From: Acorus gramineus
Lineage: Eukaryota > Streptophyta > Magnoliopsida > Acorales > Acoraceae
Direction of reading: 5' to 3'
DNA length: 64,000 nucleotides
Assembly (NCBI GenBank): GCA_030737835.1
Contig: JAUJYN010000036.1
Coordinates: forward strand, 1,116,001 to 1,180,000
The position numbers and the translations under genes are program-made. Positions 763 through 56,973 of the stretch are shown one piece after another. The notes under the pieces are model-generated. The model saw only the letters and a program-made list of their open reading frames with translations, ran no database searches and was not told the origin of the DNA. Position 1 is the stretch's first letter. The number at the start of each line of letters is the position of its first letter.

Positions 763-1795
763 TGTCACGCCCCAGGGCGGCCGTCCCCGGGACGCGGCAA
801 GTGTATATATAATATCAGAATCTACACAGGAGGTCAATAATATATATCATACACAAACAACTAGAAAGACACACATGCAACAAAAGGCTGACATGATATA
901 TACACCAAATGCAGAAGCAAAAGACTGAACCTGTAAATAAACATTCTACAGACTCGATACTCAATCATCTGTCCTGTGAGAGCCAATATACACAAATACC
1001 ACTGAACATATACAAACACGTGCCAAGCACGGAAATCAAATACATACAGTCAAGAAGGGATGCTGATAACCTCTGGCACTCGCGGAACGTGGCGCTGCTC
1101 CGCTACTGAAGGAATCCCTCGGAAAGCTCCAACTGCTGCTCCGGCTCTAGCTCAGGCTCAGTGACCACTGGGGAAAAACATATGCGAGGGGTGAGCCACA
1201 CGCTCAGTGAACAGCACAACCCATGCATCACAGACAATATTTACCACAATTCCATTATTTATCCAGCCTCTAAGACATAACAACATAATCCAGTGGTTCG
1301 TACCTCGCCGAACCACCACACCCTCACCCTCACCCATCAATGGGTGACATAGGCTATTGGGACTGATAATCATCCAACCACAAATCCAGTAGGTCGCTCA
1401 TCGCCAACCCACTACACCCTCACCCTCACCCTACCACGGGTGACATAGGATATTGGGACTGACTAGTTTGTTGGTCACCCTTGATCCACCGATAGTCTCT
1501 CCTCCACTCCGTAGGCCGCTTGGCCTCCACCCACAACTTCAGCACAGTCCGTCACAATCATCGGGAGGCGCCTACTGATGTGGGTCCTCCGAAGGACGGC
1601 CTTTCTAACATTGGGGTAGCCTCTACCGGATCCAACGAAGAGAACAGAACAGCCTATCCATACGCATATGATCCACTCGGATCCGCCGACAACACATCTC
1701 TACAACTCTAATGTCATGAACTCTTCAGAGTTCCTCCAGGGCGCATAACCAAGATGCGGGGAACACGTACAATAAAAGCAAGGTTGTAATATCAT

Positions 1796-2096
1796 TGGGG
1801 GAAAGAACTCGGGAGGGCGGCGTGAGTTCCCGATATAGGATACCCCGACAACCAAACAAGGAACACGGAGTACCCTAACCCGGGTCTCACCGCTGTCCTC
1901 GCAAGGCCCCTCCCCTATAATATTCACTAACATGCTAATAATCATACTAATCATACAACATTACATATAATATTATTGGGACTAGAAACCTTGGGAGGGC
2001 AGTATGAGGTCCCGATACAGGACATCCCGACAACCAAACAAGGAACACGGAGTACCCTAACACGGGTCTCAATGTTGACCTCGCAAGGCTCCTCCC
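1796..2096 (-). repeat. ~120-bp LTR module, two copies (representative)
   Basis: Copies at 1796-1915 and 1978-2096 share ttcccgatataggat/tcccgatacaggac, then cgacaaccaaacaaggaaca, the agtaccctaac block and cctcgcaaggc. Other copies: 5040-5158, 8224-8343, 8406-8524, 16902-17015, 17110-17230, 18092-18211, 18319-18437, 27572-27694, 33243-33362, 57394-57520. Those at 5040, 27572 and 57394 are in element interiors and not in LTRs. Confidence 0.82.
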
Positions 2097-2545
2097 TATA
2101 ATATTATCTAAGGCATGCGATTTAACATACACTAGCATTTAATTTAATAAATAAACTAGTAGGACGCATGCATAGGCCGAGGTTTCCTAGCATGAAAACA
2201 GGGGACATGGTGCATGGCTCATACACATATCCTAAGGGTGCAAGTCCCTAACATACAAAGACTAGGGTAGCATGCATTCTACATGTAAATCATACAAGCA
2301 TGGATTACATATTACTGCAGGTTAATATACATCCATGGTGCCCCAGGAGAGGTCGGTATACGCCCAAATGCGTATGACCCCTCTCTACTGGGTTGGATTG
2401 TCCCACTCACCGGTATCTGGGTCGTCGCGCGACCGTCCGTCCAGATCTGCAAGACAGACATTCAATATGGTGAGAACAATACATAAATACTCTAAAACAC
2501 CCAAACATACAAAACCCACAACTAAACACCTAACACTCGGGCAAA

Positions 2546-3600
2546 CGTGCATACGACCCGCACGCACGCTAGCCCGAGCACCCCCGGCAACCACCCGCAC
2601 GGCCGCCCGACCGCCCGGGTGCACCGCTGTGCCTCAGCCAACGCACTCCGCGCACCGCCGAACCTCCCGGGTGCACCGCGCACCCCCTGCGCCTCAGCGC
2701 AGCCGCCCGCGCACACCCCGCACGCCTCACGCTGGCCCGCGAGCACCCCGCACGCCCCGCGCGCAGCGCCTCGCCCCGCACGCACCCCGCGCGCACCACC
2801 TCACCCCGCGCTCACCCCGCGCGCACCACCTCGCTCCGCGCGGACCCCGTGCGCACCACCAGCCTCTACCCTCCTCACCGCGCGCACGGCTGCGCCTCAA
2901 CCTAGCGCCCCGCACGCATACTCCACTGCGGTGCCCAGCGCCCCTGCGCCCAGCGCTCAGCACCCTCGCCCAGCACCCTCGCCCAGCACACCCGGTATCC
3001 GCGACCAGCTCCCAGCGCTCAGCGCCCAGCACCCGGGACCCTCACCCAGCGCCCACGCGCACGCAAGCGCAACACGCGCCCAGCGCACCTGGCAGCACGC
3101 GCCCAGCGCGCCTCCCAGCATGCCCACGCTGCTGCCCGTGTTGCCTGCCTGCCTGCACGCGTCGTCGAGTGGCCCGAGCATCGTTCGCCTGCACGCCCGG
3201 CACTGCTCTCCTGATGCCCGAGCACCTCCTACCCTGCTCGCCTGCGCGCCCAGCCTGCCAGCCCGGCCTGCCCGCGCGCACAGCCCACAGCCTGCCTACC
3301 CGCATGCCTCCCCCTGCACACCCCCGAGCGCACGCCCGCCCAGCTCCTCGCGCACAGCTCGCCCAGCTCCTCGCGCACAGCTCGCCCAGCACCTCGCGCA
3401 CAGCTCGCCCAGCTCCAGCCGCTCGACCAGCTCCCCAGCACCAGCCGCTCGACCAGCTCCTCCCGGGTGTACCCGCGCGCAGCACGCCCAGCGCCCGCAC
3501 GCCCAGCACACCCGCGCACCCAGCACCCGCACGCCCAGCACGACCAGCACGCGCGCCCTGCATGCCCGCGCGCACGCACGCGCGCGCTTGACCTGCGGCG
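2546..3600. repeat. GC- and CpG-rich tract in the E0 3' LTR with a 23-bp tandem repeat
   Basis: About 1 kb made of short degenerate motifs (cgcacgc, cccagc, gcctgc). From 3345 a 23-bp unit beginning tcctcgcgcacagctc is repeated about three times. It opens long spurious frames on both strands (for example 2335-3591 plus, Pro/Ala/Arg/Thr-rich). The equivalent tract in the other LTR is about 8975-10020. In LTR orientation it lies between a conserved donor-like and an acceptor-like site. Confidence 0.8.
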
Positions 3601-4386
3601 CTGCTGTGCTGCTGCCGGTGCTACCTGCTGCCCGAGACCACCCCCCACCCTTACCCGAGCACCTCTACCACCACCCACCGACCTCCGACCACCTCCACAG
3701 CCCTCCGACGGCCACCCACAGCCGCCGACCTCCACCCAACCCCAAAACCCACCTCCTAACATCCATCTAAACAAGAAAAGAGGGGAAATAGGGCTTACCA
3801 AGGGGAGGAAGGGAAGTCCGGACGCTCTCCGCGCGCCGAAACCTTTCCCCAAAGGCTTCCACCGCCCGGATCTACTCCCACCTCCGAAATGGGCCAAAAC
3901 AGAGGAGAAGAGAGGGCGGACGGAGGGGCAAATCTCGCCGGAATTCGGATTTGAAACCACCGGGGTGTAGATCGGGACCCGATCTACACTTCCTAGGTTT
4001 TAGGTTTTTAGGTTTGAGGGGTCTAGGGGGCTCAAAAGTGAGAAAAGGAGAGAGGGGAGAGAGAGAAATCACTTGGTAGGGATGATGAATAGTGATTTCA
4101 AAATTAGATCCCATCCTTATATAGTGTGCGACTTAAAAACCCAGATACGCCCCGGAACTGCGAAATTTCGGAAACGTTACCGGAATTCGATGAAATTTTC
4201 GTGAGAGGCCTAAAATGGCACCAGGACACCAAATATGCAGTTAGATTTCCAATCGGAGTCCTCTAACTCAGGACGATAGCTAACAGTCCAAAAATTAGCG
4301 GTTCCGATCGAAAACCGAAAAAAATTGAAAAACTGCCAGAACGCTCCAACGGTTACCAGCAGGTTAAAAGTGACACATATATAACA

Positions 4387-4402
4387 TTCTTCCCCCCTTA
4401 GG
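4387..4402 (-). other. E0 polypurine tract
   Basis: On the minus strand the sequence TAAGGGGGGAAGAA sits directly before the 3' LTR start TGTTATATATG. It is the plus-strand DNA priming site of the element. The same tract occurs before the LTRs at 25386, 35239 and 61150. Confidence 0.9.
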
Positions 4403-4439
4403 AAATTTTGTCCTCAAAATATGCAAAAACATCTAGGAG

Positions 4440-4905
4440 GGGAAAAGATGCGGATACGCGTCACACCTGGCATCCTTGAGCTCCCAAGTGTCCTCGACAC
4501 CGGAACGGTGCTGCCATCGCACCTCGACCAACTGGACGGTCTTGGTGCAGAGCCTCCTCACGCGGCGGTCCATGATCTCAATCGACTGCTCCACGAATGA
4601 CTGTCCGGCTCAGAGACGAGCGGCTCGAACGGGATGACGTGAGCAGGATCGCGGACACACCTTTACCCAACTGCGAACCCACCACTCCAAGACGGAGAGG
4701 TAAGAATTGGCGCTGAGGTGAGCCTCCGATAAAACTCCAGGAAGCTCTCCTCGCAAGAAGGGGACCACTCGAACCGGACATCCTTCCGAGTAAGGCGGTT
4801 AAGAGGAACAGCTATCTTCGAGAGTCCCTCGTCAAGCTTCCTACAATAACCCTCCAACTCGGGAAGCTCCGAATCCTTGCGGGGTTCGACGGTCGGCGCC
4901 AATTT
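4440..4905 (-). pseudogene. E0 pol remnants: integrase C-terminal tail fused to an RT/RNaseH-junction fragment
   Basis: Minus-strand translation of 4663-4902 gives a stretch with LDEGLSKIAVPLNRLTRKDV and FEWSPSCEESF, typical of the RT-to-RNaseH connection of plant Ty3/gypsy polyproteins. The segment at about 4440-4650 matches the C-terminal part of the longer polyprotein in E2 (HVIPFEPLV, then the chromodomain-like end) but is broken by frameshifts. The two pieces are not adjacent in an intact pol, so RNaseH, the integrase zinc finger and the catalytic core were deleted between them. The region cannot encode a working enzyme. Confidence 0.75.
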
Positions 4906-5740
4906 GACGCGACGAGCGTCTTGCCCGGGTCCACAGATATGCCTTCACCAGAAACCACTCAGCCCAAAAGGCCTTAACCTCTAACCAAACTCGCACTTGA
5001 TCTCTCATCTATCTGATGCTTCCATGGCATCCCTTACCTGGGAAAAGAAACCTCGGGAGGGCACCATGAAATCCCGATATAGGATACCCCGACAACCAAA
5101 CAAGGAACACGAAGTACCCTAGCTCGGGTTCCAACGCCGACCTCACAAGGCCCCTTAATCCAGAAAGGAACACTGGAAGAAGACATCATTTAAAGAACAC
5201 CACTAACCCCTCCGGATCATCTACCTCTAGGTGATCACCCAACGATGTCCTTCAACATCTACCACAAGACCGGACCCAACATCATTGGGAACGGTCCAAC
5301 AGAACTTGGGTCACGAGCGACCCGTCTTCGCCTCATCCACACCCTCACTCCCAAAAGGAGACATTTTGGGACTTTGGGAGAGACTTAGACTGCTCTCTAC
5401 CCCTGGTCCACCGGTAGCCTCTCCCCGCTCCGTAGCTCGCCTGGTCCTCTGACCGGGAGCCTGTCTAACGCCGGGGCTGTACTACGCGGATCCGACGAAG
5501 GGGAGAGCGATTCCACGCTCGCGACACCATTTCAATAATCTCTTACCGGGTAGCCCCTACCTAGCATACTCCCAAATTCAGTACCCCTCCGACTGCATCG
5601 GTGGTACCTACTGATGGGAACTCTCTGCCAGGACGGCTATAACCCGGCTTCCTTAACCCAAACAACCACTCTTGACACTCACTCATCCAGATACCCCACA
5701 CACTTGCATAATAACCACCAACTACACACACACCTATCCT
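4906..5740 (-). repeat. E0 internal non-coding filler made of LTR-derived modules
   Basis: There is no Gag or Pol similarity here. At 5040-5158 lies a copy of the ~120-bp LTR module (CGACAACCAAACAAGGAACA core). It is followed by ggaagaagacatcat and then by pieces resembling the LTR-B tandem blocks (gggtcacgagcgac near 5312, accggtagcctctcc near 5410, ggatccgacgaaggggaga near 5489, ggtggtacctactgatggga near 5601). The same arrangement around the module, including the gatgcttc and gggaaaagaaacc lead-in, occurs inside E1 (27530-27760) and E3 (57345-57560). Confidence 0.7.
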
Positions 5741-5744
5741 TATA

Positions 5745-6535
5745 CTAGAGAGCTGGGAACACAAGATGATACCTCGAACCATGACACCCGAAGGCTGCGC
5801 CTCCTCGGCCGTAAGCGCTGCAACCCTGACCTGGACCAACCGCGGCTGAGGAACAGGAGCACGCCTCGCCGGCTGCACTGGCTGCTGCTGACGCGGAAGC
5901 TGCTGCTGCAAGAACTGCGGCTGCTGAGGTGGCACTCGGGGTCGGCCAGCATCAGGGCAATGGTATCTGATATGCCCGATGCGCTGACAATGAAAACAGC
6001 GCCGCTTCTCCGGCTGCATGGACTGGATGGGCACTGCTGCAATGGGTGCTGGATCCCACACTGGCACCGCATCAGCTGGAGGAGAGGCAGCCGCTGACTG
6101 ATCGAAGCGGGGCCTCTTCCTCTTGCGCTGCCCCTGGTCCCGACTCCCGGAAGGGCCCTGATCTGCAGAAGGGGTCGGAGCCCTCACCTGGATCCCGAGG
6201 TCTCTCTCGACGGTCTTCGCCCGAGACACTAAGTCGGAGTACCTCGTGAAAGCGTGGGCGGTGACGTGCACCCGGATAGCGCTGCTGAGACCGAGCTCGA
6301 ATCGACGGCACCTCGACTCCTCGTCCATCACCAACGCTAGAGCAAATCTGGACAGCCTCGTAAAGCGCGTAGAGTAGTCAGCAACCGACATGGAGCCCTG
6401 CGTCAATTGCTCGAACTCCCGCATCACGATCTGCGCGTCGAGAACGGGAAATACTCGTCCAGAAAATGCCTCCGGAAACCCGCCCAAGAAAGCTGCTCCA
6501 CTCCCTCTGGGATGTCCACCACTCGGGTAGCCCAC
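5745..6535 (-). pseudogene. gag: E0 gag, second part (capsid C-terminus and zinc knuckle)
   Basis: In the minus frame this continues gag with SMSVADYSTRFTRLSRF, a basic linker (RKRKRPRFDQ) and a CCHC zinc knuckle, CFHCQRIGHIRYHC, spaced CX2CX4HX4C. A Gln/Pro-rich segment follows. Similarity to the E2 copies stops just after ILCSQL, before the protease Asp-Ser-Gly motif, and unrelated filler then reads through to 5561. It is one base out of frame with the first gag ORF. Gag packages the element RNA into cytoplasmic particles. Confidence 0.85.
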
Positions 6536-7071
6536 CAGTCGGCGGCGTTACCCTTCAGCATAAAGGTGGCCAGGGGGACTCGCTGGCGATCAGTGCAAAG
6601 CATGGCCGCGAAGATCGTGTCCACCTCCCTCAACCAACGCTCTGGCGCAAGAGGATCTGCCGACTGCCCATGGAACTCGGGAGGATGGAGCTTTAGAAAG
6701 GCGTTGAGGCCGCTCTGCTGCACTCGCGCTGCCGCCTCTAGCTCCTCCTCCCTCTGCAGGGGACCCTGAACTCCTACCGCCGGAATCGCCACCGGAACTG
6801 GGGGTACATCGGGTACCACAGGCGGATCTGCCACCAAGGGGACCTGCGGAACTGCCTCGCGGGTCGCCCTCAGCTCCTGAATCTCTCTAGCCTGCTCTGC
6901 CAACATCCGCGTCTGTGTCTCCACCAAATCAGCCAACCGAGCGAAAGCACGCTCCCAAGCAGGAGGCTCCTGCGTCAAGGGCTCTCCGGTAGCATCCTCG
7001 TCTCTGGTAGGTCCGGAAACCTCCAAAGACCGAGAGGGACCTCGTCCGCGCCGTCCTCTGCGAGGAGGCAT
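6424..7071 (-). pseudogene. gag: E0 gag, first part (N-terminus and retrotransposon gag domain)
   Basis: A 215-residue ORF starts MPPRRGRRGRG, the same start as the E2 gag at 41490. It contains the retrotransposon gag domain, with LKLHPPEFHG, ERWLREVDTIF, LKGNAADWWATR and FRRHFLDEYFPFSTR. The start codon is about 115 bp downstream of the 5' LTR, a normal leader. Near 6430 one base is missing relative to the E2 copies (ctgcgcgtcg against ctgtcgcgtcg), which ends this frame. The rest of gag continues at 5745-6535. Otherwise the sequence is well preserved. Confidence 0.88.
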
Positions 7072-7173
7072 ATCAGCACCCTAAGAAAACCAGACACTAG
7101 GATCAGAATACTCATATAGAAATCCTAGGACTCATCTCTACGAAAGGAGGACTATTGGCTCTGACAGGACCAG

Positions 7174-7185
7174 GCTCTGATACCA
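7174..7185 (-). other. E0 primer-binding site (initiator tRNA-Met type)
   Basis: The minus strand reads TGGTATCAGAGC, six bases inside the 5' LTR boundary at 7192. This 12-mer complements the 3' end of plant initiator tRNA-Met and is standard for many plant Ty3/gypsy elements. It is a primer-binding site and not a tRNA gene. Confidence 0.92.
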
Positions 7186-7191
7186 ACTTTT

Positions 7192-10100
7192 TGTCACGCC
7201 CCAGGGCGGCCGTCCCCGGGACGCGGCAAGTGTATATATAATATCAGAATCTACACAGGAGGTCAATAATATATCATACACAAACAACTAGAATGACACA
7301 CATGCAACAAAGGGGCTGACATGATATATACACCAAATGCGGAAGCAAAAGACTGAATCTGTAAATAAACATTCTACAGACTCGATACTCAATCATCTGT
7401 CCTGTGAGAGCCAATATACACAAATACAACTGAACATATACAAACACGTGCCAAGCACGGAAATCAAATACATACAGTCAAGAAGGGATGCTGATAACCT
7501 CTGGCACTCGCGGAACGTGGCGCTGCTCCGCTACTGAAGGAATCCCTCGGAAAGCTCCAACTGCTGCTCCGGCTCTAGCTCAGGCTCAGTGACCACTGGG
7601 GAAAAACATATGCGAGGGGTGAGCCACACGCTCAGTGAACAGCACAACCCATGCATCACAGACAATATTTACCACAATTCCATTATTTATCCAGCCTCTA
7701 AGACATAACAACATAATCCAGTGGTTCGTACCTCGCCGAACCACCACACCCTCACCCTCACCCATCAATGGGTGACATAGGCTATTGGGACTGATAATCA
7801 TCCAACCACAAATCCAGTAGGTCGCTCATCGCCAACCCACTACACCCTCACCCTCACCCTACCACGGGTGACATAGGATATTGGGACTGACTAGGCTGTT
7901 GGTCACCCTTGGTCCACCGATAGTCTCTCCTCCACTCCGTAGGCCGCTTGGTCTCCACCCACAACTTCAGCACAGTCCGTCACAAAAATCGGGAGGCGCC
8001 TACTGATGTGGGTCCTCCGAAGGACGGCCTTTCTAACGCTGGGGTAGTCTCTACCGGATCCAACGAAGAGAACAGAACAGCCTATCCATACGCATATGAT
8101 CCACTCGGATCCGCCGACAACACATCTCTACAACTCTAATGTCATGAACTCTTCAGAGTTCCTCCAGGGCGCATAACCAAGATGCGGGGAACACGTACAA
8201 TAAAAGCAAGGTTGTAATATCATTGGGGGAAAGAACTCGGGAGGGCGGCGTGAGTTCCCGATATAGGATACCCCGACAACCAAACAAGGAACACGGAGTA
8301 CCCTAACCCGGGTCTCACCGCTGTCCTCGCAAGGCCCCTCCCCTATAATATTCACTAACATGCTAATAATCATACTAATCATACAACATTACATATAATA
8401 TTATTGGGACTAGAAACCTTGGGAGGGCAGCATGAGGTCCCGATACAGGACATCCCAATAACCAAACAAGGAACACGGAGTACCCTAACACGGGTCTCAA
8501 TGTTGACCTCGCAAGGCTCCTCCCGATAATATTATCTAAGGCATGCAATTTAACATACACTAGCATTTAATTTAATAAATAAACTAGTAGGACGCATGCA
8601 TAGGCCGAGGTTTCCTAGCATGAAAACAGGGGACATGGTGCATGGCTCATACACATATCCTAAGGGTGCAAGTCCCTAACATACAAAGACTAGGGTAGCA
8701 TGCATTCTACATGTAAATCATACAAGCATGGATTACATATTACTGCAGGTTAATATACATCCATGGTGCCCCAGGAGAGGTCGGAATACGCCCAAATGCG
8801 TATGACGCCTCTCTACTGGGTTGGATTGTCCCACTCACCGGTATCTGGGTCGTCGCGCGACCGTCCGTCCAGATCTGCAAGACAGACATTCAATATGGTG
8901 AGAACAATACATAAATACTCTAAAACACCCAAACATACAAAACCCACAACTAAACACCTAACACTCGGGCAAACGTGCATACGACCCGCACGCACGCTAG
9001 CCCGAGCACCCCCGGCAACCACCCGCACGGCCGGCAACCACCCGCACGGCCGCCCGACCGCCCGGGTGCACCGCCGCGCCTCAGCCAACGCACCCCGCAC
9101 ACCGCCGAACCTTCCGGGTGCACCGCGCACCCCCTGCGCCCCAGCGCAGCCGCCCGCGCACACCCCGCACGCCTCGCGCTGGCCCGCGAGCACCCCGCAC
9201 GCCCCGCGCGCAGCGCCTCGCCCATCACGCACCCCGCGCGCACCACCTCGCCCCGCGCGCACCACCTTGCTCCGCGTGCACCCCGCGCTCACCACCAGCC
9301 TCTACCCTCCTCACCGCGCACACGACTACGCCTCAACCCAGCGCCCCGCGCGCATACTCCACTGCGGTGCCCTGCGCCCAGCGCTCAGCACCCTCGCCCA
9401 GCACACCCGGTATCCGCGACCAGCTCCCAGCGCTCAGCGCCCAGCACCCGGGACCCTCACCCAGCGACCACGCGCACGCAAGCGCAACACGCGCCCAGTG
9501 CGCCAGGCAGCACGCGCCCAGCGCGCCTACCAGCATGCCCACGCTGCTGCCCGCGTTGCCTGCCTGCACGCGTCGCTGAGTGGCCCGAGCACCGTTCGCC
9601 TGCACGCCCGGCACTGCTCTCCTGATGCCCGAGCACCTCCTACCCTGCTCGCCTGCGCGCCCAGCCTGCCAGCCCGGCCTGCCCGCGCGCACAGCCCACA
9701 GCCTGCCTACCCGCATGCCTCCCCCTGCACCCCCCGAGCGCACGCCCGCCCAGCTCCTCGCGCACAGCTCGCCCAGCTCCTCGCGCACAGCTCGCCCAGC
9801 ACCTCGCGCACAGCTCGCCCAGCTCCAGCCGCTCGACCAGCTCCCCAGCACCAGCCCCTCGACCAGCCCTACCGGGTGTACCCGCGCGTAGCATGCCCAG
9901 CGCCCGCACGCCCAGCACACCCGCGTGCCCAGTACCCGCACGCCCAGCACGACCAGCACGACCAACACGCGCGCCCTGCATGCCCGCGCGCACGCCCGCG
10001 CGCATGCACGCGCGCGCCCGGCCTGCTGTGCTGCTGCCGGTGCTACCTGCTGCCCGAGACCACCCCCCACCCTTACCCGAGCACCTCTACCACCACCCAC

Positions 10101-10809
10101 CGACCTCCGACCACCTCCACAGCCCTCCGACAGCAACCCACAGCCGCCGACCTCCTCCCAACCCCAAAACCCACCTCCTAACATCCATCTAAACAAGAAA
10201 AGAGGGGAAATAGGGCTTACCAAAGGGAGGAAGCGAAGTCCGGACGCTCTCCGCGCGCTGAAACCTTTCTTCAAAGGCTTCCACTACCCGGATCTACTCC
10301 CACCTCCAAGACAGCCCAAAACAGAGGAGAAGAGAGGGGGGACGGAGGGGCAAATCTCGCTGGAATTGGGATTTGAAACCACCGGGGTGTAGATCGGGAC
10401 CCGATCTACACTTCCTAGGTTTTAGGTTTTTAGGTTTGAGGGGTCTAGGGGGCTCAAAAGTGAGAAAAGGAGAGAGGGGAGAGAGAGAAATCACTTGGTA
10501 GGGATGATGAATAGTGATTTCAAAATTAGATCCCACCTATATATAGTGTGCGACTTAAAAACCCAGATACGCCCCGGAACTGTGAAATTTTGGAAACGTT
10601 ACCGGAATTCGATGAAATTTTCGTGAGAGGCCTAAAATGGCACCAGGACACCAAATATGCAGTTAGATTTCCAATTGGAGTCCTCTAACTCAGGACGATA
10701 GCTAACAGTCCAAAAATTAGCGGTTCCGATCGAAAACCGAAAAAAAATTGAAAAATTGCCAGAACGCTCCAACGGTTACCAGCAGGTTAAAAGTGACACA
10801 TATATAACA
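7192..10809 (-). repeat. E0 5' LTR (LTR-A, 3.6 kb)
   Basis: Partner of the LTR at 763-4386, with the same ends and internal order. Visible differences include a short tandem duplication (about 19 bp, near 9018-9050), several indels in the GC-rich tract, and scattered substitutions. The primer-binding site lies just outside it at 7174-7185, which marks it as the 5' LTR of a minus-strand element. The TATA-like TATATATAG equivalent lies near 10540-10550. Confidence 0.93.
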
Positions 10810-11987: not shown

Positions 11988-14900
11988 TGTCATGCCCCAG
12001 GGCAGCCGTCCCCGAGACGTGGCAATATATAAAGTATCATCTATCAATATCTGAGGTCAACAAAGACTCAAACAACAACACACAAGGTGGCAAGGCAAAG
12101 ATAAATGATAACTGACTGAAAAGCGAAGCATAAGATATCAACAATGTCTGTAACCAAAAACATTATTACAGACTCGAATACACAATCACTCTCCTTTGAG
12201 AGTCAAGTCTAGTCCAAATAAAATACAACCTGTGCCACATGCACGATTTACAATACATAAAATGACTCTAGGACTGCTGACAGCCTCGCACTCGCCACCT
12301 GCCAGACAGAACGTTCCACGCACATTGGACCACTCCACCGGGAAGCTCCAGCTCCACGCCCAACACTGCCCCTGAAAAGAAACAGTATGCGAGGGGTGAG
12401 CTACAAGCATAATGAGTTGCTGGAAACCAATCACCAATACAACAGTTCAATACTAAAGCAATTTCCTTTTAAGCAAAACATGGGTGGAAACCCAATGGAT
12501 AACAAGGTCACGCGGCGGCGCGACCAACCTCACCCTCACCCTCACTCCCGGAGGAAGACTCTTTGGACTTTTGGGGAGAGACCATGCCGTTGGTCGAAGA
12601 GACGCGGAATTACTGGTCTACACAACACTACTGGATCATCTACATCGAGATAACTGCCCAACAATGTCTCTGAACATCGTTACAGAACCGGACCCAATAA
12701 CTATGGAAACGGACGAACAACGAAATGGGTCACGCAGCGACGTGACTTCAACTCATCCTCACCCTAGCCCCTGGTGGGGTGACCCTAGGGACTTTTGGGA
12801 TAAATCCGCTTGCTCTACACCCTTCATCATCCGGTAACCCTCTCCTGGATAGCCTCTACCTGGTATACTCCCATGATCAGTACATCTTGCCGCATGCATC
12901 GATAGTACCTACAAGTGAGGGCCCTCTGTCAGGACAGCTACAACGCCGGGCAGCATCGACACGGATCCGATGAAGGGGAGAACGATTCCACGCTCGCAAT
13001 ATCATTCGTTAGCCCTCTCCCGTGTAGCCTCTACCTGTCGGCCTTCCACGATCGGTACATCAGCCAGATGTGTACCGCGATACGCATCGGTAGCACCTAC
13101 AAGTGGTGGCACCCAAACAAGACAGCTTCGACGCTGGGGTGTTTCGACACACGACGATGTCGGGAGGAAGCACCCCACGTTCGCAAAGCGAACCCTATGG
13201 GAAAGTCATCTACACTCGATAATCACATATCGACTATAACGAATACTCTTGGAGTCCCACACGAGTGCATCGCTCAAACGCGAGGGGTTATCTCTGCTCT
13301 CACGCATAAATAAGCCCAAGGCATATAACCCAACAGGCGGTTCATATACGCACCTAGCACGGGTAGGCCTAACTTAATGCCAAAGCTACCGGTTTAACAA
13401 AACCGATACAACAAATGAATTCTCTTGAATTCAATTCAAGTGCATCACACGGATGCAAGGGCAATTACATCGCTCGCGCACTAACTAATGAGGTACATCC
13501 CGACAGCGGGTCATACCCACGCCTATTTCAAATAGGCCTAATTAGTTTTGACATGTGCATATAGATAACAGGAGAATCATATCATAGTTATGTGTATGAA
13601 CCATATGCACGATCATCTAATAATTGACTATAAGGGTAACCCCTAACATGGATTTACATAATAAACAACAAATCATACAACATGCATACAAGGTATGACC
13701 CACTTAAACATGCGTTGGATATCACCAACTTAAAAGGGAAGGGTCCAGCGCGGTCTTGCGCACTAATAAGTGCATGCCAATATTCCAAACGAACCTGAGT
13801 CGAGTAGGAAATCGCATTTACTTACTCAGTTCGTGCAGAGGGAGAGGGCGAGAGAGAGCTCATCATCTCTTGAAGTTGGTCATAGCTTTGCCCCATTAGC
13901 ATGGGCGCAACAACTACACCACGCCCTCGAGTCTTATCGCAAGGGAATATTAGGCATGTGCTCGTTGTTAACCCAGACTTAATCATGCTGGATATTTCAA
14001 TTAATATGGTAGTATTACTCATAGGGACTTCCTAAGGCATGCTTATTCTATACATTCATGAAAACCCACATCACACATGCCCATACATGAAGGGTGCATG
14101 CATACATAATAATTCACACATGAATATACATAGGCAAGTATATGGTAGAAAAGGGGGTTCTACGCAATATACGAGCTATACAAGCCTAGCATGCAAATAT
14201 CTAGCATATTTAGGGTGCAAAGAAGCCCCATGGATGCGTGATGCACGACTACGTGCATCGAGCGCATCCCGAAGGGTTGGATCGAACCACTCACCGCAAC
14301 CCGGGACCTCGCACATCCCATCCGAATAAATCTGCAAGGTAGGGGCATCCAATTTGGTGAGTAAAATCACATTATAACACTTAGAATTTACTATAAATAC
14401 CAAAGACTTAGACATGCACGCATGCCCGAGTGCCCCAGCACCTACCCGAGCCCCTGGGCAGCCACACGCGTGGCCCTGCACGCGTACACACGCATGCACG
14501 CGCCACCAAGCCTGCTGGCGCCTAGACGCTCTGGCTAGCGCGTGCGCACGGCCAGCGCACTGCGCGCCTGCCAACACCCCGCATGCATGCCCGCACGCAC
14601 GCGCACGTGCCCGCCTGCGCGCCCGACTGCACTCGCCTGTGCTCCTTAGCGCGCGCGCCTGAGCGCGCACGTGGGCTGACAGACCCGCGCGCTCCTAGTC
14701 ACCATTTAACCCCTTTAACCCCTCCCCCACACTCCTCAATCACCCTAACTCAATCATCTAGCATGCATGACCCCCTTACAACCCCTAACACATGAAAAAC
14801 CAAAGAAAAGAAGGGGGAGAGCTCACCAAGGGAGGGGGAATGAAAGGGGGAGATTCGGGGAGCCTCGATGCACCAGCGACCACCTCAACCACCACCACCA

Positions 14901-15570
14901 CTACCACTACCTCCACAGCCTCTCCTCAGCCTTCTTTGGCTGAAAAACAGGGGGGGAAAGACATGAGAGAGAGCTTGAGAGAAGAGAAACCACAACAACA
15001 ACAACATATACACAAAACACACCTTCTTGTTCTCCTTCTTTTGCTTCTTCCTCCTCCTTCTCCACACACAAAGAGGGGAAAAAGAGACCAAGAGAGGGAG
15101 CTTGAGAGAGTTCCATGAAATGGGAGAGAAGGGTGTTATATATGTGTCACTTTTTAACCTTCTGGTAACCATTGGACCATTCTGGTAGTTTTTCAGTTTT
15201 TTTCGTTTTTCGATCGGAACCGCTAAAATTTTGGGCTTTTAGCTATCACCTTGAGGTTGAGGGCTCCGATTGAAAATCTAACTGCATATTATGTGTCCTG
15301 GTGCCATTCCAAGCCACTCATGAAAATTTCATCAAATTCCGGTAACGTTTCAGAATTTCACAGTTCTGAAGCGTATCCGGGTTTTGACCGAGCGAGAAGT
15401 CATTGGGAGACTTGACTTGGTCAAAGTTGACCTTTGACTTGGTCAAATGAATTTGGATTTTTGTGTGGTTGGGTTGACTAGGGTCAAACCACACTTAAAC
15501 CTAATCTAATCCTAGCCTAAACCTAATTAGGGCTAATCTAAGTGGTGTGAGTGTGTGGTGTGGGTGTGAG

Positions 15571-15577
15571 TATAAAG
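15571..15577 (+). promoter_or_regulatory. TATA-box-like element of LTR-A
   Basis: tataaag follows ggtgtgagtg and is about 440 bp into the LTR. A TATA-like sequence is found on the element strand near 4116-4124 (E0), near 34807 (E2 3' LTR) and near 10540-10550. The first exon-like block begins shortly downstream. No transcript data support the start site. Confidence 0.5.
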
Positions 15578-16741
15578 AAATCCCACGAATACATCCCCCC
15601 CCCACTATTCATCATCTTCTCCAAATTTCTCCCTCTCTTTAATCCCCCCATATGACCTAGTTCAAGGGGTCAAAACCAAAAACCCTAAGAAGAGAAAGGT
15701 TAGGTTTTGTCCCGATCTATCTTCCGGTGGTCTCGGATTCGAGTTCCCACGTGTGTGACCCCTTCTCATGCCCTTTTTCTCCTCTGATTTCAGCCATTTT
15801 TAGGGCTGAAGGAGATCTCGGTGGTGGTGGTCTTGGAGGTGATGTTTCGGTGCGCGAAGAGCAACCGATCTTCCCTTCCTTTCCTTCCTTGGGTGAGGTT
15901 TCTTTCCTTCCTTTTCTTGTTTAGATGTATGTTAGGGTGGGTTTTTGGGAGTGAAAAATGTGCTTGGTGGTTTGGGAGTGGTTGTGGTGGCTGTTGGTGG
16001 CGGTTGGGGTGGTTGAGCTTGGCTCGGGTGCATGCGGGTAGCGGCACGCGCAGGTAGGCAAGCGCAGGCGGGCAGGCGTAGGTGGGCGAGCTGCTGGCAG
16101 GCGCGCTGGGCGCGTGCTGTCGGGCTCGCTGGGCACGTGCGGTCGGGCGCGCTGGGCGCAGTGCACGGCGTGCGCGCGGAGCGCTGCGCAGGGGCGCAGT
16201 GGGTGCTGTGCACGCAGGGTGCTGCGCTGGGGCGCAGGGCGTGCGGGTGTGCGCGCGAGTTGCTACGTTGGGGCGCAGTGAGCGCGCGGTGCACCCGAGG
16301 GGCTCGTCAGCGTGTCCGGGCATGCGGGCCGGGGGCTCGACAGTGCGGCTGGGCGCGCGGGCTGGGGCGCGGCTGTGCGCCTGGGTCGGGTGGCCGTGCG
16401 TACGGCTGCCCGGGGGTTCGGGAGTGAGTCGGGGTGCTCGGACTCGCGTGCGTACGGGCCATATGTACGTTGTCCGAGTGTTGGGTATTTTTAGTGTATT
16501 TTAGTTGTATTTATGTATTTTACTCACCAAGTTGATTACCCTGTCTTGCAGATCTTGACGGACGGTCACGCGACGACCCGGTTAAGGGTTAGTGGTACAC
16601 TCCAACCCAGTAGGGAGGCACTATATGCACTTGGGCGTTTACCGTCCTCCCCTAGGGCACCATGGTTAATATTAACTTGTGTAGTATGTAATCCATGCAA
16701 GCATGATTGATATGTAGTATGCATGCTACCCTAGACTTTGT

Positions 16742-19130
16742 ATGTTAGGGACTTGCACCCTTAGGATATGTGTAAGAGCCATGCATCCTGTCACCCTGTT
16801 CTCATGCTAGGAAGCCTCGACCTATTCATGTGTCCTACTAGTTTGATTTATTAAATTAAATGCGAACTTATAGTGTTTTAGCATGCCTTAGGGAATATTA
16901 AGGGGCCTTGCGAGGTCAACATTGAGACCCGTGCTAGGGTACTCCGTGTTCCTTGTTTGGTTGTCGGGATGTCCTATATCGGGACCTCACGCTGCCCTCC
17001 CAAGGTTTCTTTTCCCAATAATATTATATTTGTTCCCCGCATCTTGGTTATGCGTCCTGGAGGAATTCTGAAGAATTCATGTCATTAGTAGAGTCTCCCT
17101 TCTCTGGATTAAGGGGCCTTGCGAAGTCAGCGTTGAGACCCGGGCTAGGGTACTCCGTGTTCCTTGTTTGGTTGTCGGGATATCCTATATCGGGACCTCA
17201 TGGTACCTTCCCAGGGTTTCTTTTTCCAGTTAAGGAATACCGACGGATCCGAGTGGATCATATGCGTATGGATAGGCTGTTTCTGTACCCTTCGTTGGAT
17301 CCGTGTAGAGACTGCCCCAGCGTTAAAAAGGCCGTCCCGTTTGATGGCTCCCAACAGTATGTACCTCCTGATTTTGGATTCGGACTGTGCTAAAGTGTGG
17401 GAGGAGGCCAAGCGGCTACGGAATGGAGGAGAGACTATCGGTGGACCAAGGGTGATTAACAGCCTAGTCAGTCCCAATATCCTATGTCACCTATTGAGGG
17501 GTGAGGGTGAGGGTGTGGTGGGTCGGCGATGTAGCGACCCACTGGTTTGTGTAGTTCCTGCCACTTTGAGGCTTGAATAATAAATTGTGGTTAATATAAA
17601 TTGTGATGCAAGGGTTGTGCTATTCACTGAGCGTGTGGCTCACCCCTCGCATATATTTTTCTCCAGTGTTATCTGAGTCGGATCAGGAGGAGGAGCTCCC
17701 TGAGGGACCTCAGCAGTAGCGGTGCAGCGCCACATTTTTGCGAGTGTTAGAGGCCATCAGCATCCCTTTTTGATTTGTATGTATTATATTCCGTGCTTGG
17801 GCACGCGTTTGTATTATATTTGGATGTCGTTGTATATATTGGCTCTCACAGGACAGTTGATTATGTATCGAGTCTGTAATATGTCTTTGAGTTACAGATT
17901 CAGTCTTTTAGCTTCCGCTATTTGTGTATATGTTAGGGACTTGCACCGTTAGGATATGTGTAAGAGCCATGCATCCTGTCACCATGTTTTCATGCTAGGA
18001 AAGCCTCGACCTATGCATGTGTCCTATTAGTTTAATTTATTAAATTTAAATGCAAACTTAGGGTATTTTAGCATGCCTTAGGGAATATTATAAGGGGCCT
18101 TGCGAGGTCAGCATTGAGACCCGGGCTAGGGTACTCCGTGTTCCTTGTTTGGTTGTCGGGATATCCTATGTCGGGACCTCATGGTGCCCTCCCAAGGTTT
18201 CCTTTCCCGATAATATTATACCCTTGTTATTGTTATGTATGTTCCCCGCATCTTGGTTTTGCGCACTGGAGGAATTATGAAGAATTCATGACATCAGTAG
18301 AGTCTCCCTTCTCTGGATTAAGGGGCCTTGCGAAGTCAGCGTTGAGACCCGGGCTAGGGTACTCCGTGTTCCTTGTTTGGTTGTCGGGATATCCTATATC
18401 GGGACCTCATGGTGCCTTCCCAGGGTTTCTTTTTCGAGTTAAGGGTACCGCGGATCCGAGTGGATCGTATGCGTATGGATAGGCTGTTTTTGTTCCCTTC
18501 GTTGGATCCGTATAGAGACTGCCCCAGCGTTAGAAAGGCCGTCCCGTCAGAGGGCTCCCATCAGTAGGCACCTCCTGATTTGGATTCGGACTGTGCTGAA
18601 GTGTGGGAGAAGGCCAAGCGGCCTACGGAGTGGAGGAGAGACTATCGGTGGACCAAGGGTGATTAACAGCCTAGTCAGTCCCAATATCCTATGTCACCTA
18701 TTGAGGGGTGAGGGTGAGGGTGTGGTGGGTCGGCGATGTAGCGACCCACTAGATTGTGTAGTTCCTGCCACTTTGAGGCTTTTAATAATTATTGTGGTTA
18801 ATATAAATTGTGATGCATGGGTTGTGCTATTCACTGAGCGTGTGGCTCACCCCTCGCATATATTTTTCTCCAGTGTTATCTGAGTCGGATCAGGAGGAGG
18901 AGCTCCCCGAGGGACTTCAGCAGTAGCGGTGCAGCGCCACATTTCCGCGAGTGTTAGAGGCTATCAGCATCCCTTTTTGATTTGTATGTATTGTATTCTG
19001 TGCTTGGGCACATGTTTGCATTATATTTGGATGTCATTGTATATATTGGCTCTCCCAGGACAGTTGATTGTCTATCGAGTCTGTAATATGTCTTTAAGTT
19101 ACAGATTCAGTCTTTTAGCTTCCGCTATTT
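16742..19130 (+). repeat. 1.19-kb direct tandem duplication inside the solo LTR-A
   Basis: Sequence from about 16742 (gttagggacttgcaccctta) recurs from about 17934 (gttagggacttgcaccgtta) with the same order of blocks: ggcatgcctta, the ~120-bp module twice, ggatccg, the gtgtggctcacccctcgc block and the ctcacaggacagttgat block. The first copy breaks off at ctatttgtgtatat|gttaggg. The second continues to ctatttgtgtatatatcatgtcagcc and the LTR end. The junction shares only a few bases (tatgt-like). Confidence 0.85.
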
Positions 19131-19636
19131 GTGTATATATCATGTCAGCCCCATTGTTGTCTGTGTTGAAACTGCTGATATCATATATACACTTGCCGCG
19201 TCCCGGGGACGGCCGCCTTGGGGTGTCACAAGGGGAGAGAGAGAGAGGGCAAAAATGTCTTTTTCAAGCCCAAATAGTGTCTAGGGGTGACCATAAGGGG
19301 GTGGTGAGGTTAGGGTTAGGCTCACCCTCACTCAACCACTCATTTTTTCTTTATTGGGAAGTGTGCGGAGAAGCACCACACACTCAAAAATATCTCACCC
19401 ACCGAAACCCAATAACGGCCAAATCTGGATACGGTTCGGAACTGCATATTTTTCAAAATAATATCGGAATTTGATGAAATTTTTATGGGTAGTAGAAAAC
19501 GGTACCAGGACCCATAATATGCAGTTAGATTTTCAATCAGAGTACTCCAACTCCCGCAAGTGGTTAAAAGCTAAAATTTTAACGACTCCGATCGAAAAAA
19601 AATTAAGGCTCCAAATGACATAGGCATAACACTCTC

Positions 19637-21800: not shown

Positions 21801-24800
21801 TGTCACGCCCCAGGGCGGCCGTCCTCGAGACGTGGCAATAATAAAATATCAGCTATCAATACCTGAGGTCAATAAAGACTCCAACAACAACTCACAAGGT
21901 GGCAAAGCAAAGATAATGATAACTGACTGAAAAGCGGAAGCATAATACATAAACAATGTCTGTAAACAAAAAACATTATTACAGACTCGAATACACAATC
22001 ACTGTCCTGTGAGAGCCAAGTCTAGACCAAAGAAAATACAACCTGTGCCACATGCACGATTTTACAATACATACAATGACTCTAGGACTGCTAACAACCT
22101 CGCACATGCCACCCGCCAGAAGAACGCTCCACGCCCATAAGACCACGCCACAGGAAAGCTCCAGCTCCACACCCAACACTGCCCCTGAAAAGAAATAGTA
22201 TGCGAGGGGTGAGCTACAAGCTCAGTGAGTGGCTGGAAACCAATCACCATACAACAGTTCAATACATAAGCACTTTCCTTTCAAGGGAAACATGGGTGGA
22301 AACCCATGGATAACAGGGTCACGCGGCAGCGCGACCAACCTCACCCTCACCCTCACTCCCGGAGGGAGACTCTTGGGACTTTTGGGGAGAGACCATACTG
22401 TTGGTCGACGAGACCCGGGATTACTGGTCTACACAACACTACTAGATCATCTACATCGGGATAACTGACCCACGATGTCTTTAAACATCGATACACAACC
22501 GGACCCAACAACTATGGGAACGGACGAACAACAAATGGGTCACGCGGCGATGTGTCTTCACCTCATCCTCACCCTCACCCCTTAGAGGTGACATAGGACT
22601 TTTGGAAGAGACTTAGACTGCTCTACACCCTTGGTCCACCGGTAGCCCTTTCCCCACGTAGCCTCTACCTGGTATACTCCCACGATCAGTACGCTTCCGA
22701 ATGCATCGATGGTACCTACGGATGGGAGCCCTTTGTCAGGACAGCTTTAACGCCGAGGAGTTCCTACATCGGATCCAACGAAGGGGAGAACGATTCCACG
22801 CTCGCAATATCATTCGTTAACCCTCTCCCGGGTAGCCTCTACCTAGTATACTCCCACGATCAGTACGCTCCCGAATGCATCGGTGGTACCTACGGATGGG
22901 AGCCCTCTGTCAGGACAGCTACAACCTGGGCCCCCTCAACACGGACGACATTGGGAGTAAACATTCCATGTTCGCAAAGCAAACCCAATGGAAAACAACT
23001 ACTCTCGATAATCACTTATCGAGATATCGAATACTACTGTACTCCCACACCGTTGCGTCGCTCAGACACAAAGGGGTGACACGCCCCAACTACCGGCTTA
23101 GCAAACCGTTAAGATAATGAATCCTCCTGAATTCCAAATGAGGGCATCGCTCGGATGCACGGGCGATTTCATCGCTAGCGCTCTAACTAATAAGGTACAA
23201 CCCGACAGCGGGTCATACCCACACCTATTCCAACGAGGCCTATCAGTTTTAACATGCGCATATATTTTAGAGGAGAATTTAATCTTAGTTGTGTGCATGA
23301 ACCATATGCACGATCACATATCAATTAATCATAGGGATACTCCCTAATCATATATTTACATCATAATAAATCATACAACATGCATACATGGTCATTAATC
23401 ACATAAACATACAAAATATACTCTAATATCCGTTGGATATCGCCAACTTAAAAGAAGGGTTCAAGCAGGTGCATGTCAATAATCCAAACGAACCTGAGTC
23501 GAGTAGGAAATCACCTACTCAGTTTGTGCAGAGGGAGAGGGCGAGAGAGATCATCATCTCATGAAGCTGGTCATAGCTTTGCCCCATTAGCATGGGCGCA
23601 ACAGCTACACCACGCCCTCGAGTCTTATCGCAAGGGAATATTAGGCAGGTACCCGTTATTAACCCAGACTTAATCATACTGTATATTCCAATTAATATGG
23701 TGGGAGTAGTATTACAATACTACCTAAGACATGTCATATTCTATACATCCATACACATTTACAACATACATGCCCATACTAGAGGGGCTCATGCAACACA
23801 ATCATTCATACATGAATACAATACATGTATATAAGCCTAGCATGCAAGATATCTACATATTATAGCTTCAGGGGCCCATCGATGCGCGACGCGCGTCTAC
23901 GCGCGTCGGGCGGATCCCGAGAGGGGGGGGGGGATTGGATCGAACCACTCACCATACAACCCGGGACATCGCGCATCCAATCCGACGAGATCTGCAGGGT
24001 AAGGGTATCAAATTTGGTGAGTAACATCACAATTTAATACTTAGAATTTACTAGAAATGCCAAAGACTTAGACATGCACGCATACGGGCTCGCATGCATG
24101 CAAGCACGCGCGTACGCACGCATGCCCGAGTGCCCCAGCACCTACCCGAGACCCTGGGCAGCCCCATGCATGCCCCAGCACGCGCACGCACGTGCACGCA
24201 TGCGCGCGAGCGCACTGGCCCCCAGCCCCGCGCCCAGGCGCATGCCCCGTGCGCGTGCACGCCCCGCGCGCACCCCTGCTCGCGCCAGCGCCCGCGCGCG
24301 TCTGAGCTCCCGCCTGCGCCTGCCAGCGCCCTTCTGCTCGCGCGCCTGCACGTGCACGCGCGCAGACAGCCCCCAGCGAGCGCCCAGCCCCTTTTTAACC
24401 CTCCCCAACCCCTCACACACACTCTAACCCATCTACCTAGCATGCATGACCTCCCCAACCATCCCAACAGCCCAAAAAAATCAAGAAGAAGGGGAAGAGG
24501 ACTTACCAAAAGAGGGAAAAGGAAAGGGGGAGATGCGGGGCTCTCGACGTGCCCACGGCCACCTCAACCACCACCACCACCACGCCTCCTCTTCAGCCTC
24601 TCTCCAGCCCTCATTGGCTGCAAATCAGGGGGGGGGGAAGTTCATGAAAAGGGAGCTTAGAGAGAGGAGGATCAACAACAACAACAACACTTACACAAAC
24701 TTGCTCTTCCTCCTTCACCTTCTCCTTCTCTTCTCTTTGAGACCTTAACACAAACACTTGGGGGATGTGTGTGAAAGAGAGAAAGAGAGCCCAAGATGGT

Positions 24801-27991: not shown

Positions 27992-30505
27992 TATCACGCC
28001 CCAGGGCGGCCGTCCCCGATACGTGGCAAATATATATAATATCAGCAGTCTATACAGGAGATCAATAAAATACTCTAAACAACATTGAAAATGACAACAC
28101 AGACAATAATGAAGCTGACATAATATATATACATATAGCGGAAGCTTAAACGACTGAGTCTGTAATTCAAAGACATATTATAGACCCGAATACATAATCA
28201 ACTGTCCTGTGAGAGCCAATATAAACAATGACATCCAAATACAAGTGTGTGCCCAAGCACGAATAACAATACATACAATCAAGAAGGGGATGCTGATGGC
28301 CTCTCACTCACATAATTAAAAACGTGACGCTGCTCCGCTACTGCTGTGATGCCTCGGGGAGCTCCTCCTTCAGATCCGACTCAGATACAACTGGAGGAAA
28401 AGAATATGCGAGGGGTGAGCCACACGCTCAATGAATGGCACAATCTGTGCAACACAACTCATATTAACCGTAAATCATTTAAAGTCCCTAAACGAGAGTA
28501 ACTACACAAGTTAGTGGGTCGTATCACCACCGACCCACCCCACGCTCACCCTTTATGGGTGACATGGGCCTTTTGGGACAGACTAGACCGCTCTCCACCC
28601 TTGGTCCACCCGGTAGCCTCTCTCACACTCCGTAGCCTCTACCTGGTATACTCCCATTATCAGCACAGTCCGACGCATCGGAGGTACCTACAGATGAGAG
28701 CCCTCTGTCAGGTCAGCTTTCCAACGCCGGGGAGTCCCTATTTGGATCCAACCAAAAGGAGAAGATAGCCTACTCACACGGATACGATCCTCTTGGATTT
28801 GTAACACTACTGATGTCATGAATTCTCAAGAATTCCTCCAGGGCGCATAACTAAGATGCGGGGAAACATATATTATAACAACAAGGTTATAATATTCTCT
28901 AAGGCATGCTTATAACAATATGCTCTCATTTTGATTTAATTAGATTAAACTAGATGGGAACATACATAGTTCGGGGCTTTCCAATCAAGGGACATGGTGT
29001 CTAGGCATGCATAGGCCTCTATACATGATATAAGGGTGCATATCCCTAGCATACAAAGTCTAATGCGGCATGGTTACATCATATTAATCATGCATTGCAT
29101 AGTTTTACATTTATCACAAGTTAATACACAATTATGGTGCCCCATGGGAGGGCAATGCACGCCTATGTGCATCGAATGCCTCCCTACTGGGTCGGATTGT
29201 CCCGGGTCATTGCGTGACCGTCCGTCAAGATCTGCAAGACATGGGCATTCAATATGGTGAGTAAACTACACAAATACATAAGAAATTTACTAGAAATACC
29301 CAATACTCGGACAAGCATGCATACGGACCCGCACACATGCGAGCACGCGCGTACGCACGCGAGTCCGAGTGCCCCGACGGCATCCCGAACCCTCGGGCAG
29401 CCATACGCATGCCCCCCCCCCCGCACGCGCACCTACGCCCCTGGCGCACTACCGCGCCCCTACCCACGCGCCCAGACGCGCTGCCACGCTCGCGGGAGCC
29501 CGCGGGCACCGCGAGCCCAACCCAGCGCGTACCCGCGCGCACTGCGCCCCCCAAAGCACCCCGCGCGCACGCCCGCTCGTCTGCGCGTACGCGCGCGCGC
29601 CTGCCAGGGCGCCCGTCTGCCCCTTCCACCCCCTCCTCAGCCCACCCACACCCCCTAACACCTATGCATAGCATGCATAACCATTTCAACTCCCTAATCA
29701 ATCATCTAAACAAGCTAGGGGAGGAGGAAGACTTACCCAAGGAGAGGAAGAACAGGGGGAGGAAGCTCGGGTGCCCTTTGCGCACCAAACCGCCACAACT
29801 GCCACCACCAAGACCACCACCACCTCAGCCACTCTCAAGGCCTAAAGATGGCTGAAAACAGGGGTGGGGGAAAGCCATGAGAGGGAGGTAGAGAAAGGGG
29901 AAATCAAAACAAAAACCATACAAAGGTAGATCACACACATACCTTTCTTTTTCCCTTCTAGGGTTTTCTTATTCTTCTTCTTCTACTAGCTCTAATGGGG
30001 GGAATAAAGAAGAGGGAGTGATGGATTGTGTGTGTGAGAGAGAGAGAGATGGGGAAGAAAAAGGGGCGCCCAACACTAGTGACACACACACACACACACA
30101 CACACTTGGAACAATTTGTGTTGGTGGGATTGACTTTGAGTCAACCCAACCACACAAAAAACAAATGTATTTGACCAAGTCAATGGTCAAATTTGACTTG
30201 GTCCAAGTCTTCTTTGACTTGGTCAAGTCCCCCCTTTGACATTCCCACTCGGTCAAAACCCGGATACGATTCAGAACTGTGAAATTCTGAAACGTTACCG
30301 GAATTCGATGAAATTTTCGTGAGTGGTTCAAAATGGTACCAGGACACATAATGTGCAGTTAGATTTTCAATCGGAGTTCTCGAACTCATGAAGATAGTTA
30401 AAAGTCCAAAATTTTAGCGGTTCCGATCGAAAAAAGAAAAAGTTGAAAAACTGCCAGAAATGTCCCAAAGGTGACCAGAAGGCTAAAAGTGACACATATA
30501 TAACA
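27992..30505 (-). mobile_element. Solo LTR-A (2.5 kb) inside E1
   Basis: The plus strand begins TATCACGCCCC (TG mutated to TA) and ends ACATATATAACA. Perfect GTCAC duplications lie at 27987-27991 and 30506-30510. The insertion lies within the first codons of the E1 gag. It lacks the ~120-bp modules, so it is shorter than the 3.6-kb copies. It contains a GC-rich tract (about 29320-29640), splice-like blocks, and a (CA)n run near 30087-30105. Confidence 0.93.
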
Positions 30506-39408: not shown

Positions 39409-39415
39409 ACATGCG
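39400..39415. other. Chimeric junction inside E2 (RT start of copy Y joined to gag codon ~6 of copy X)
   Basis: Left of the join the plus strand reads ccgcgccgtcctctg, the reverse of gag near its start. Right of it acatgcgaagcccttctcg is the reverse of the RT phrase EKGFAC. The native continuations are ctgcgaggaggcat for gag (7056-7071) and cggacatgcgaagcc for RT (37315). Almost no homology is shared. Confidence 0.88.
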
Positions 39416-39858
39416 AAGCCCTTCTCGAGCCACTCCTCCAGCTGCTCCTTGAGCACCTTCAGTTCTGCTGGGGCCATCCCGGTACGGAGCTCTCGAAATC
39501 GGCTCGGTCCCAGAATTAGATTAATCTCAAACTCGATCGCGCGGTCCGGCGGTAGTCCTAGAAGATCATTAGGGAAAACCTCAGGATATTCTACCACGAC
39601 TGGAGTCTGACTGATATCTGCCCGCAGTGGTGCATTATCCTCAGCAATGTACACAAGAAAACCCTCACATCCTCCTTGAAGGAGTCTCCACGCCTTGATG
39701 GACGACACGAACCCCAAAGGGGCTATGTCCTGATCGCCCACGAACTGGAAAAATCTCTTACCAGGGATGTGGAAAGACACCAACTTCACAAAACAGTTGA
39801 TACTGGCGTGGCTAGCTGAGAGCCAGTCCATTCCTAGGATGGCATCGAAGTCCGTCAT
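39409..39858 (-). pseudogene. pol: E2 copy Y: protease end to RT start
   Basis: It encodes MTDFDAILGMDWLSASHASI, FQFVGDQDIAPLGFVSS, PEVFPNDLLGLPPDRAIEFE and the start of RT, LKEQLEEWLEKGFAC, before the join at 39408. It parallels copy X at 37340-37790 with many substitutions. Downstream of the join the open frame runs on in a wrong frame of gag to 38857, which is not real coding. Confidence 0.85.
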
Positions 39859-39894
39859 GGAGCTCGACCAACTCTAATGGAAACTCATGCTCCG

Positions 39895-40674: not shown

Positions 40675-40689
40675 CTCGAAACGACGGCA

Positions 40690-56961: not shown

Positions 56962-56973
56962 TGGTATCAGAGC
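56962..56973 (+). other. E3 primer-binding site
   Basis: TGGTATCAGAGC lies five bases after the LTR end (gtgacaaaagt|tggtatc). Confidence 0.93.

Follow-up and report, generated by a model that had tools for sequence, protein, structure and literature searches.

The major splice donor of foamy viruses, HTLV-1 and BLV is situated within the LTR (R region, downstream of the start site), but their acceptor lies in the viral body and there is no complete intron within the LTR. The Penelope element of Drosophila virilis carries an intron in its terminal repeat. Penelope-like elements in general resemble the elements described here in being retroelements that carry introns through transposition; however, they are not LTR retrotransposons, and according to the accessible part of PMC3846280 their introns are kept, possibly via antisense templates. 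Among plant systems, BARE1, a Ty1/copia element of barley, produces a spliced gag RNA and a separate unspliced RNA for replication (PMC3735527). It is likewise a plant LTR retrotransposon with a spliced RNA; its intron, however, is 104 nt long and situated at the end of gag and not in the LTR, and the accessible sections of the same paper report a failure to amplify DNA copies of the spliced RNA, whereas probable copies of that kind are present here. Ogre/Tat elements, which are plant Ty3/gypsy retrotransposons, contain a partly spliced intron between gag-pro and pol, but that intron lies in the coding region, where it fuses reading frames, and not in the LTR (cited in PMC6317226, of which an excerpt was available). 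In sunflower, Nanopore reads revealed alternative splicing of the RNA of the retrotransposons Tyran and Varan; this concerns spliced internal sequences and short GAG isoforms, an LTR intron is not described in the available passages of that study, and members of Tekay were, according to the same passages, not among the expressed elements (PMC7730604). A literature search of partial coverage returned no report of introns inside the LTRs of plant LTR retrotransposons, which does not establish their absence from print; a paper on plant centromeric retrotransposons (PMC3059260) mentions neither splicing nor introns, and one on LORE1 (PMC2832683) has just two passages with such terms, both unrelated.

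The LTR family and its intron-like intervals

The window, i.e. the whole 64-kb stretch of DNA analysed, is part of a 398.6-Mb assembly of 137 contigs and is densely filled with nested Ty3/gypsy elements of a large-LTR family that is abundant in the genome. Pfam matches in these elements comprised Retrotrans_gag, RVP_2 and the integrase C-terminal SH3_Tf2-1, together with a weak Chromo match on the integrase (E 3.6e-4; 20.8 bits, under the curated cut-off of 25.1). The LTRs start with TG, insertion is accompanied by a 5-bp target duplication and a primer-binding site follows the 5' LTR, as in Ty3/gypsy LTR retrotransposons; that site, TGGTATCAGAGC, was found behind LTRs at four places in the window. 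From the features of gag and the LTR, the family is a putative chromovirus of the Tekay/Del clade. The LTR copies in the window belong to an A type (A, C, D, E and the pair of element E0), a B type (B, F, G and H) and a J/K type, and the features discussed below are the following.

15134–19229, + strand: LTR-A, a solo LTR; TG start, AAGGG on both sides, no primer-binding site behind it
15571–15576, + strand: TATA box upstream of exon 1 of LTR-A, from the sequence
15699–15793, + strand: intron 1 of LTR-A; exactly absent in related LTRs, alternative donor possible at 15704
15893–16551, + strand: intron 2 of LTR-A, 659 nt, GTGAGG..TTGCAG; exactly absent in A-type relatives
2447–3798, − strand: intron 2 of the E0 3' LTR, 1352 nt
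8875–10220, − strand: intron 2 of the E0 5' LTR, 1346 nt
14332–14826, − strand: intron 2 of copy H (B type), 495 nt
23992–24506, − strand: intron 2 of copy G (B type), 515 nt
29232–29736, − strand: intron 2 of copy C (A type), 505 nt
33708–34478, − strand: intron 2 of copy D (A type), 771 nt
42892–43243, − strand: intron 2 of copy E (A type), 352 nt, acceptor TTGTAG
47981–48599, − strand: intron 2 of copy F (B type), 619 nt; exactly absent in F-type relatives
50693–51211, + strand: intron 2 of copy J (same type as K), 519 nt, AT-rich
52285–52986, + strand: intron 2 of solo LTR-B, 702 nt
61750–61828, + strand: intron 1 of copy K, 79 nt, GTGAGT..CATGAAG; exactly absent in K-type relatives
61934–62452, + strand: intron 2 of copy K, 519 nt; exactly absent in K-type relatives

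The original prediction held that the LTRs carry an ordered series of splice-like signals downstream of a TATA box. Its second pair was recovered as described, with the donor GTGAGG at 15893 and the acceptor TTGCAG/ATCT ending at 16551 in LTR-A and an equivalent pair in LTR-B. The segment between them was also correctly said to vary in length (here measured as 659, 702, 1352 and 519 nt in LTR-A, LTR-B, E0 and K, respectively; 352–1352 nt in the window as a whole) and to be GC-rich in most copies and AT-rich in one: nine representatives have a GC content of 0.58–0.71, the K type one of 0.38. Other parts stood in part. The TATA box is present at 15571 in LTR-A, but is absent, as judged by eye, from the homologous place in some copies; the pair 15699/15793 is real as a class (intron 1, approximately 60–100 nt), although its exact ends vary between subfamilies; and the minus-strand copies keep the order for intron 2, as in the 1352-nt interval of E0 (3798 to 2447), but not for intron 1, E0 having no recognisable intron 1 donor or acceptor.

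In alignments within each type, the donor GTRAG and the acceptor TTGCAG/AT are kept in every copy aligned across that point. Among ten representatives of intron 2, the donor positions G−1, G+1, T+2, A+4 and G+5, like the acceptor AG, do not vary (10/10), while most other columns near the two sites agree in 4–9 of the 10. Since further columns flanking the sites are also 10/10 (donor −10; acceptor T−10, T−5 and G−4; exon +1, +2 and +4), the GT and AG dinucleotides are not the sole invariant bases. From this conservation across subfamilies we infer selection on the intron ends. As a possible branch point, a motif resembling TTGAT/TTGAA is found about 16–20 nt before the acceptor of intron 2 in the A and B types, and differs in K, by an unscored inspection by eye. 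A search of the window against Rfam gave no match; the conserved blocks are thus not explained by a known RNA family.

The interior of intron 2 presents a different picture. In most types its sense strand, including 15893–16551, is G-rich and of low complexity, in contrast to typical plant introns, which are described as U-rich in the accessible part of PMC3735527. The intron 2 of K gave no BLAST match to that of F, A, C or G, whereas the flanking exons of K and F are 79% (249 aligned positions) and 90% (199 aligned positions) identical, the match in the downstream exon starting 26 nt past the acceptor. The J/K type is evidently one in which intron 2 has been swapped for an unrelated sequence at the same site, between constant exons.

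Two further observations concern the structure of these copies. LTR-A is the longest LTR in the window owing to an internal tandem duplication, about 1.2 kb in size (16741–19138; 92.7% identical). E0 is a two-LTR element on the minus strand (763–10809) flanked by TCAGC (5 bp), its LTRs being 95.5% identical; just about 2.8 kb with gag-like reading frames lie between them, and it looks non-autonomous.

LTRs lacking one or both introns

If the interval is an intron of a transcribed leader, reverse transcription of spliced RNA would be expected to yield copies missing exactly that interval. The genome was therefore queried with 70 nt of exon 2 joined to 70 nt of exon 3. The junction was crossed without intron 2 at all 40 scored places with the K query, at all 40 with the F query and at 14 of 40 with the D-type query, the other 26 being partial matches. 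In every one of the 58 intronless LTRs fetched, which represent three subfamilies, intron 2 was cut exactly at the donor and acceptor: 22/22 in a set of 12 A-type and 10 K-type LTRs, 16/16 in the F type and 20/20 in a further K-type set, with L053 and L056 included in the count. Because junction queries favour exact junctions, this figure arises partly by selection, and weight accordingly falls on the controls. A query built in like manner for a third predicted donor/acceptor pair, discussed below, crossed its junction at 0 of 40 scored places. Among the intron-bearing copies of the window, only 1 of 83 other indels of at least 40 nt has GT..AG ends, these being counted over ordered pairs that are not independent.

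Intron 1 is often missing as well, exactly or nearly so. It is absent from eight of the 12 A-type LTRs without intron 2 and kept in four (L009, L016, L018 and L019); in two of the eight, L010 and L011, the junction is shifted to 7 nt upstream of the usual acceptor, which suggests a different splice acceptor in their parent. In the F type it is absent from 11 of 16 LTRs without intron 2 (in L070 at a different junction), kept in four (L074, L081, L083 and L084) and unplaced in L073. The corresponding K-type LTRs (n = 30) lack it in 21 cases, 12 at the standard junction and nine at others, keep it in one (L055) and are unscored in eight; the 79-nt interval GTGAGT..CATGAAG is exactly absent from K-type intronless copies, and other K copies use different junctions, including the standard acceptor TTTCAG/CC. 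In contrast, all 20 of the intron-bearing K-type loci fetched have both introns, of 58–99 nt (intron 1) and 517–524 nt (intron 2). That intron 1 is kept in some and absent in other LTRs without intron 2 means that the two introns are removed separately.

The intronless LTRs start at the LTR's own TG, upstream of the promoter region, and are by their sequence ordinary LTRs, not processed pseudogenes. Identical 5-bp duplications around them were found by script in four of 14 (L009, CAGAG; L013, TAATA; L016, GGGAC; L017, TGGAG) and by eye in L012 (GTATA). Two elements, L012 and L020, have a pair of intronless LTRs; identity within the pair is 96.3% over the larger piece in L012 and 95.4% over part of the LTR in L020. 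The exact cuts, the 5-bp duplications and the elements with two intronless LTRs together make it very probable that reverse transcription of spliced element RNA took place in the ordinary LTR cycle; the trees described below indicate that it did so more than once. The LTRs of this family thus almost certainly carry at least two real GT-AG spliceosomal introns downstream of the promoter region, and there is a high probability that the intronless LTRs derive from spliced RNA. The central proposal of the original prediction, an intron inside the LTR with constrained ends and a free interior, is borne out by the exact removal of intron 2 in 58/58, the frequent exact removal of intron 1 and the J/K swap between homologous exons.

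Origin and rarity of the intronless copies

In the tree of K-type LTRs (53 rows) there are 11 changes of intron state, at least six of which are forced by well-supported branches, and a single clade of intronless copies is rejected by the AU test (p 1.7e-8). The A-type tree (22 rows) has four changes, at least two of them forced (AU against a single intronless clade, p 6.1e-6). The K-type tree leaves out L053 and L056, which are not LTR-like upstream of exon 2, and includes the rows L023_1 and L025_1, which come from the same loci but represent LTRs of other types. The A-type tree has no usable row from L004, L006 or L007, two rows from the single locus L003 and one row without an assigned donor (L008), and it uses the 3' LTR of L012 and leaves out its 5' LTR. 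Genome-wide pattern counts gave 40 K-type places without intron 2, about five of which (two mismatches) are unconfirmed as spliced, against 1253 with the acceptor, 20 of these unspliced places having been fetched. For the A type, 17 of 32 matches were altered acceptors, and the 15 remaining places without intron 2 compare with 3890 that have it; reversed-pattern controls gave 0 matches. As the patterns used differ in strictness, the resulting proportions of about 3% (K) and 0.4% (A) are rough. L026 and L028 share flanking matches and look like segmental duplicates, so the events are fewer than the copies. Judged from the trees and counts, intronless copies are born repeatedly yet are rare, which suggests poor fitness; some of them, however, sit on long branches and may be old subfamilies that multiplied, and this possibility weakens the case.

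The same trees bear on whether the intronless LTRs could instead be ancestral, the introns having been gained later by insertion at a fixed site. Two such insertions could account for the unrelated intron 2 sequences that K and the other types have at one site. Yet in neither tree can the intronless copies, interspersed as they are with intron-bearing ones, be confined to one clade, the K-type intron-bearing copies share one homologous intron of 517–524 nt, which repeated gain would not be expected to produce, and introns 1 and 2 are absent in differing combinations. Since the intron-bearing copies of each subfamily have a single homologous intron in common, repeated loss explains the pattern more simply, and gain is very improbable. 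Loss without splicing, in which a hypervariable stretch of simple GC-rich repeats between conserved control blocks would be removed by DNA deletion, agrees with the low-complexity, GC-rich interior of most copies, but hardly with losses that end at GT and AG in 58 fetched cases against 1 of 83 for other indels, nor with the fact that these copies have lost intron 1 too, at splice sites of its own; the AT-rich K interval, moreover, behaves alike. Deletion is hardly credible, and both gain and deletion were rejected on the scatter in the trees and the exact GT/AG cuts.

Proposed course of events and role of the introns

An intron downstream of the start site and upstream of the primer-binding site would be expected to vanish once a spliced RNA is copied, and its survival in thousands of copies therefore needs explaining. 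The DNA places both introns downstream of the promoter region and before the 3' half of the LTR, intron 2 being free in sequence and length between conserved ends (GTRAG..TTGCAG/AT). According to the preferred reading, the RNA presumably starts upstream of intron 1, so that the 5' leader would contain both introns and the primer-binding site would follow them. They would be removed from much of the translated RNA, whereas the RNA that is usually copied would keep them; intron-bearing LTRs would dominate because most transpositions by far would copy intron-retaining RNA. Occasionally an RNA without intron 2, or without both introns, would be reverse-transcribed. In retroviral replication the end of the leader is copied first and is passed to both LTRs; strong-stop DNA copied from a spliced 5' leader would thus leave both new LTRs without introns.

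Introns in 5'-UTRs of plants are known to raise expression or to aid RNA handling. Leader introns near the promoter may do the same here, and intronless lineages would then have left few descendants; we hold this role as a tentative one, at somewhat less than even odds. The explanation as a whole, i.e. two leader introns, occasional copying of spliced RNA and an expression-related role, is given a probability of about 0.88, the GC-rich intron 2, the non-universal TATA box and the absence of a clear intron 1 in E0 being counted against it. A stronger version, in which the lineage depends on its own LTR introns, is speculative and on balance unlikely: the introns would be removed from the working RNA and restored only via an unspliced template, intronless progeny would mostly be dead ends, and splicing would act as a built-in check on the quality or timing of element RNA; the subfamily whose intron 2 was exchanged for an unrelated one would have preserved its splice sites.

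Two other roles may be considered. The introns might separate RNA pools, the spliced RNA being translated and the unspliced RNA packaged, with packaging signals residing in the introns or exposed by their retention. That most copies keep their introns would suit such a separation, as would the distinct RNA pools and spliced mRNA reported for BARE1 of barley in the accessible part of PMC3735527; on the other hand, the intronless LTRs indicate that spliced RNA can be copied, and conservation between types does not extend to the interior of intron 2, so that no shared packaging signal is evident. This makes the separation of pools doubtful as the main role. It is also known that introns can protect plant transgenes from small-RNA silencing, and a role mainly as a shield of the transcript against such silencing, although improbable, would explain why the introns are retained without a conserved interior.

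With intron-bearing and retro-spliced LTRs coexisting in one genome, nature would have recorded the frequency with which spliced genomic RNA undergoes reverse transcription, and the cost of doing so. Variation among LTRs can in this way preserve evidence of splicing without RNA data, and annotation tools that expect uniform LTRs will mis-score such families.

The original prediction had also listed a third donor/acceptor series in LTR-B (donor 53026, acceptor 54640). A joined query of the same design as those for intron 2 crossed this junction at 0 of 40 scored places, and no third exact gap was seen downstream of the intron 2 junction in the four intronless LTRs compared (L009, L010, L013 and L017); the third intron was consequently rejected. 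The solo LTR-B itself (51466–54973) is apparently inserted in a J-type LTR, within 49914–56956, the 3' part of J resuming before the primer-binding site at 56962. Elsewhere in the window, at 37417–41113, a minus-strand element has two tandem copies of its gag-protease part, which are about 2.07–2.09 kb apart and 77–87% alike.
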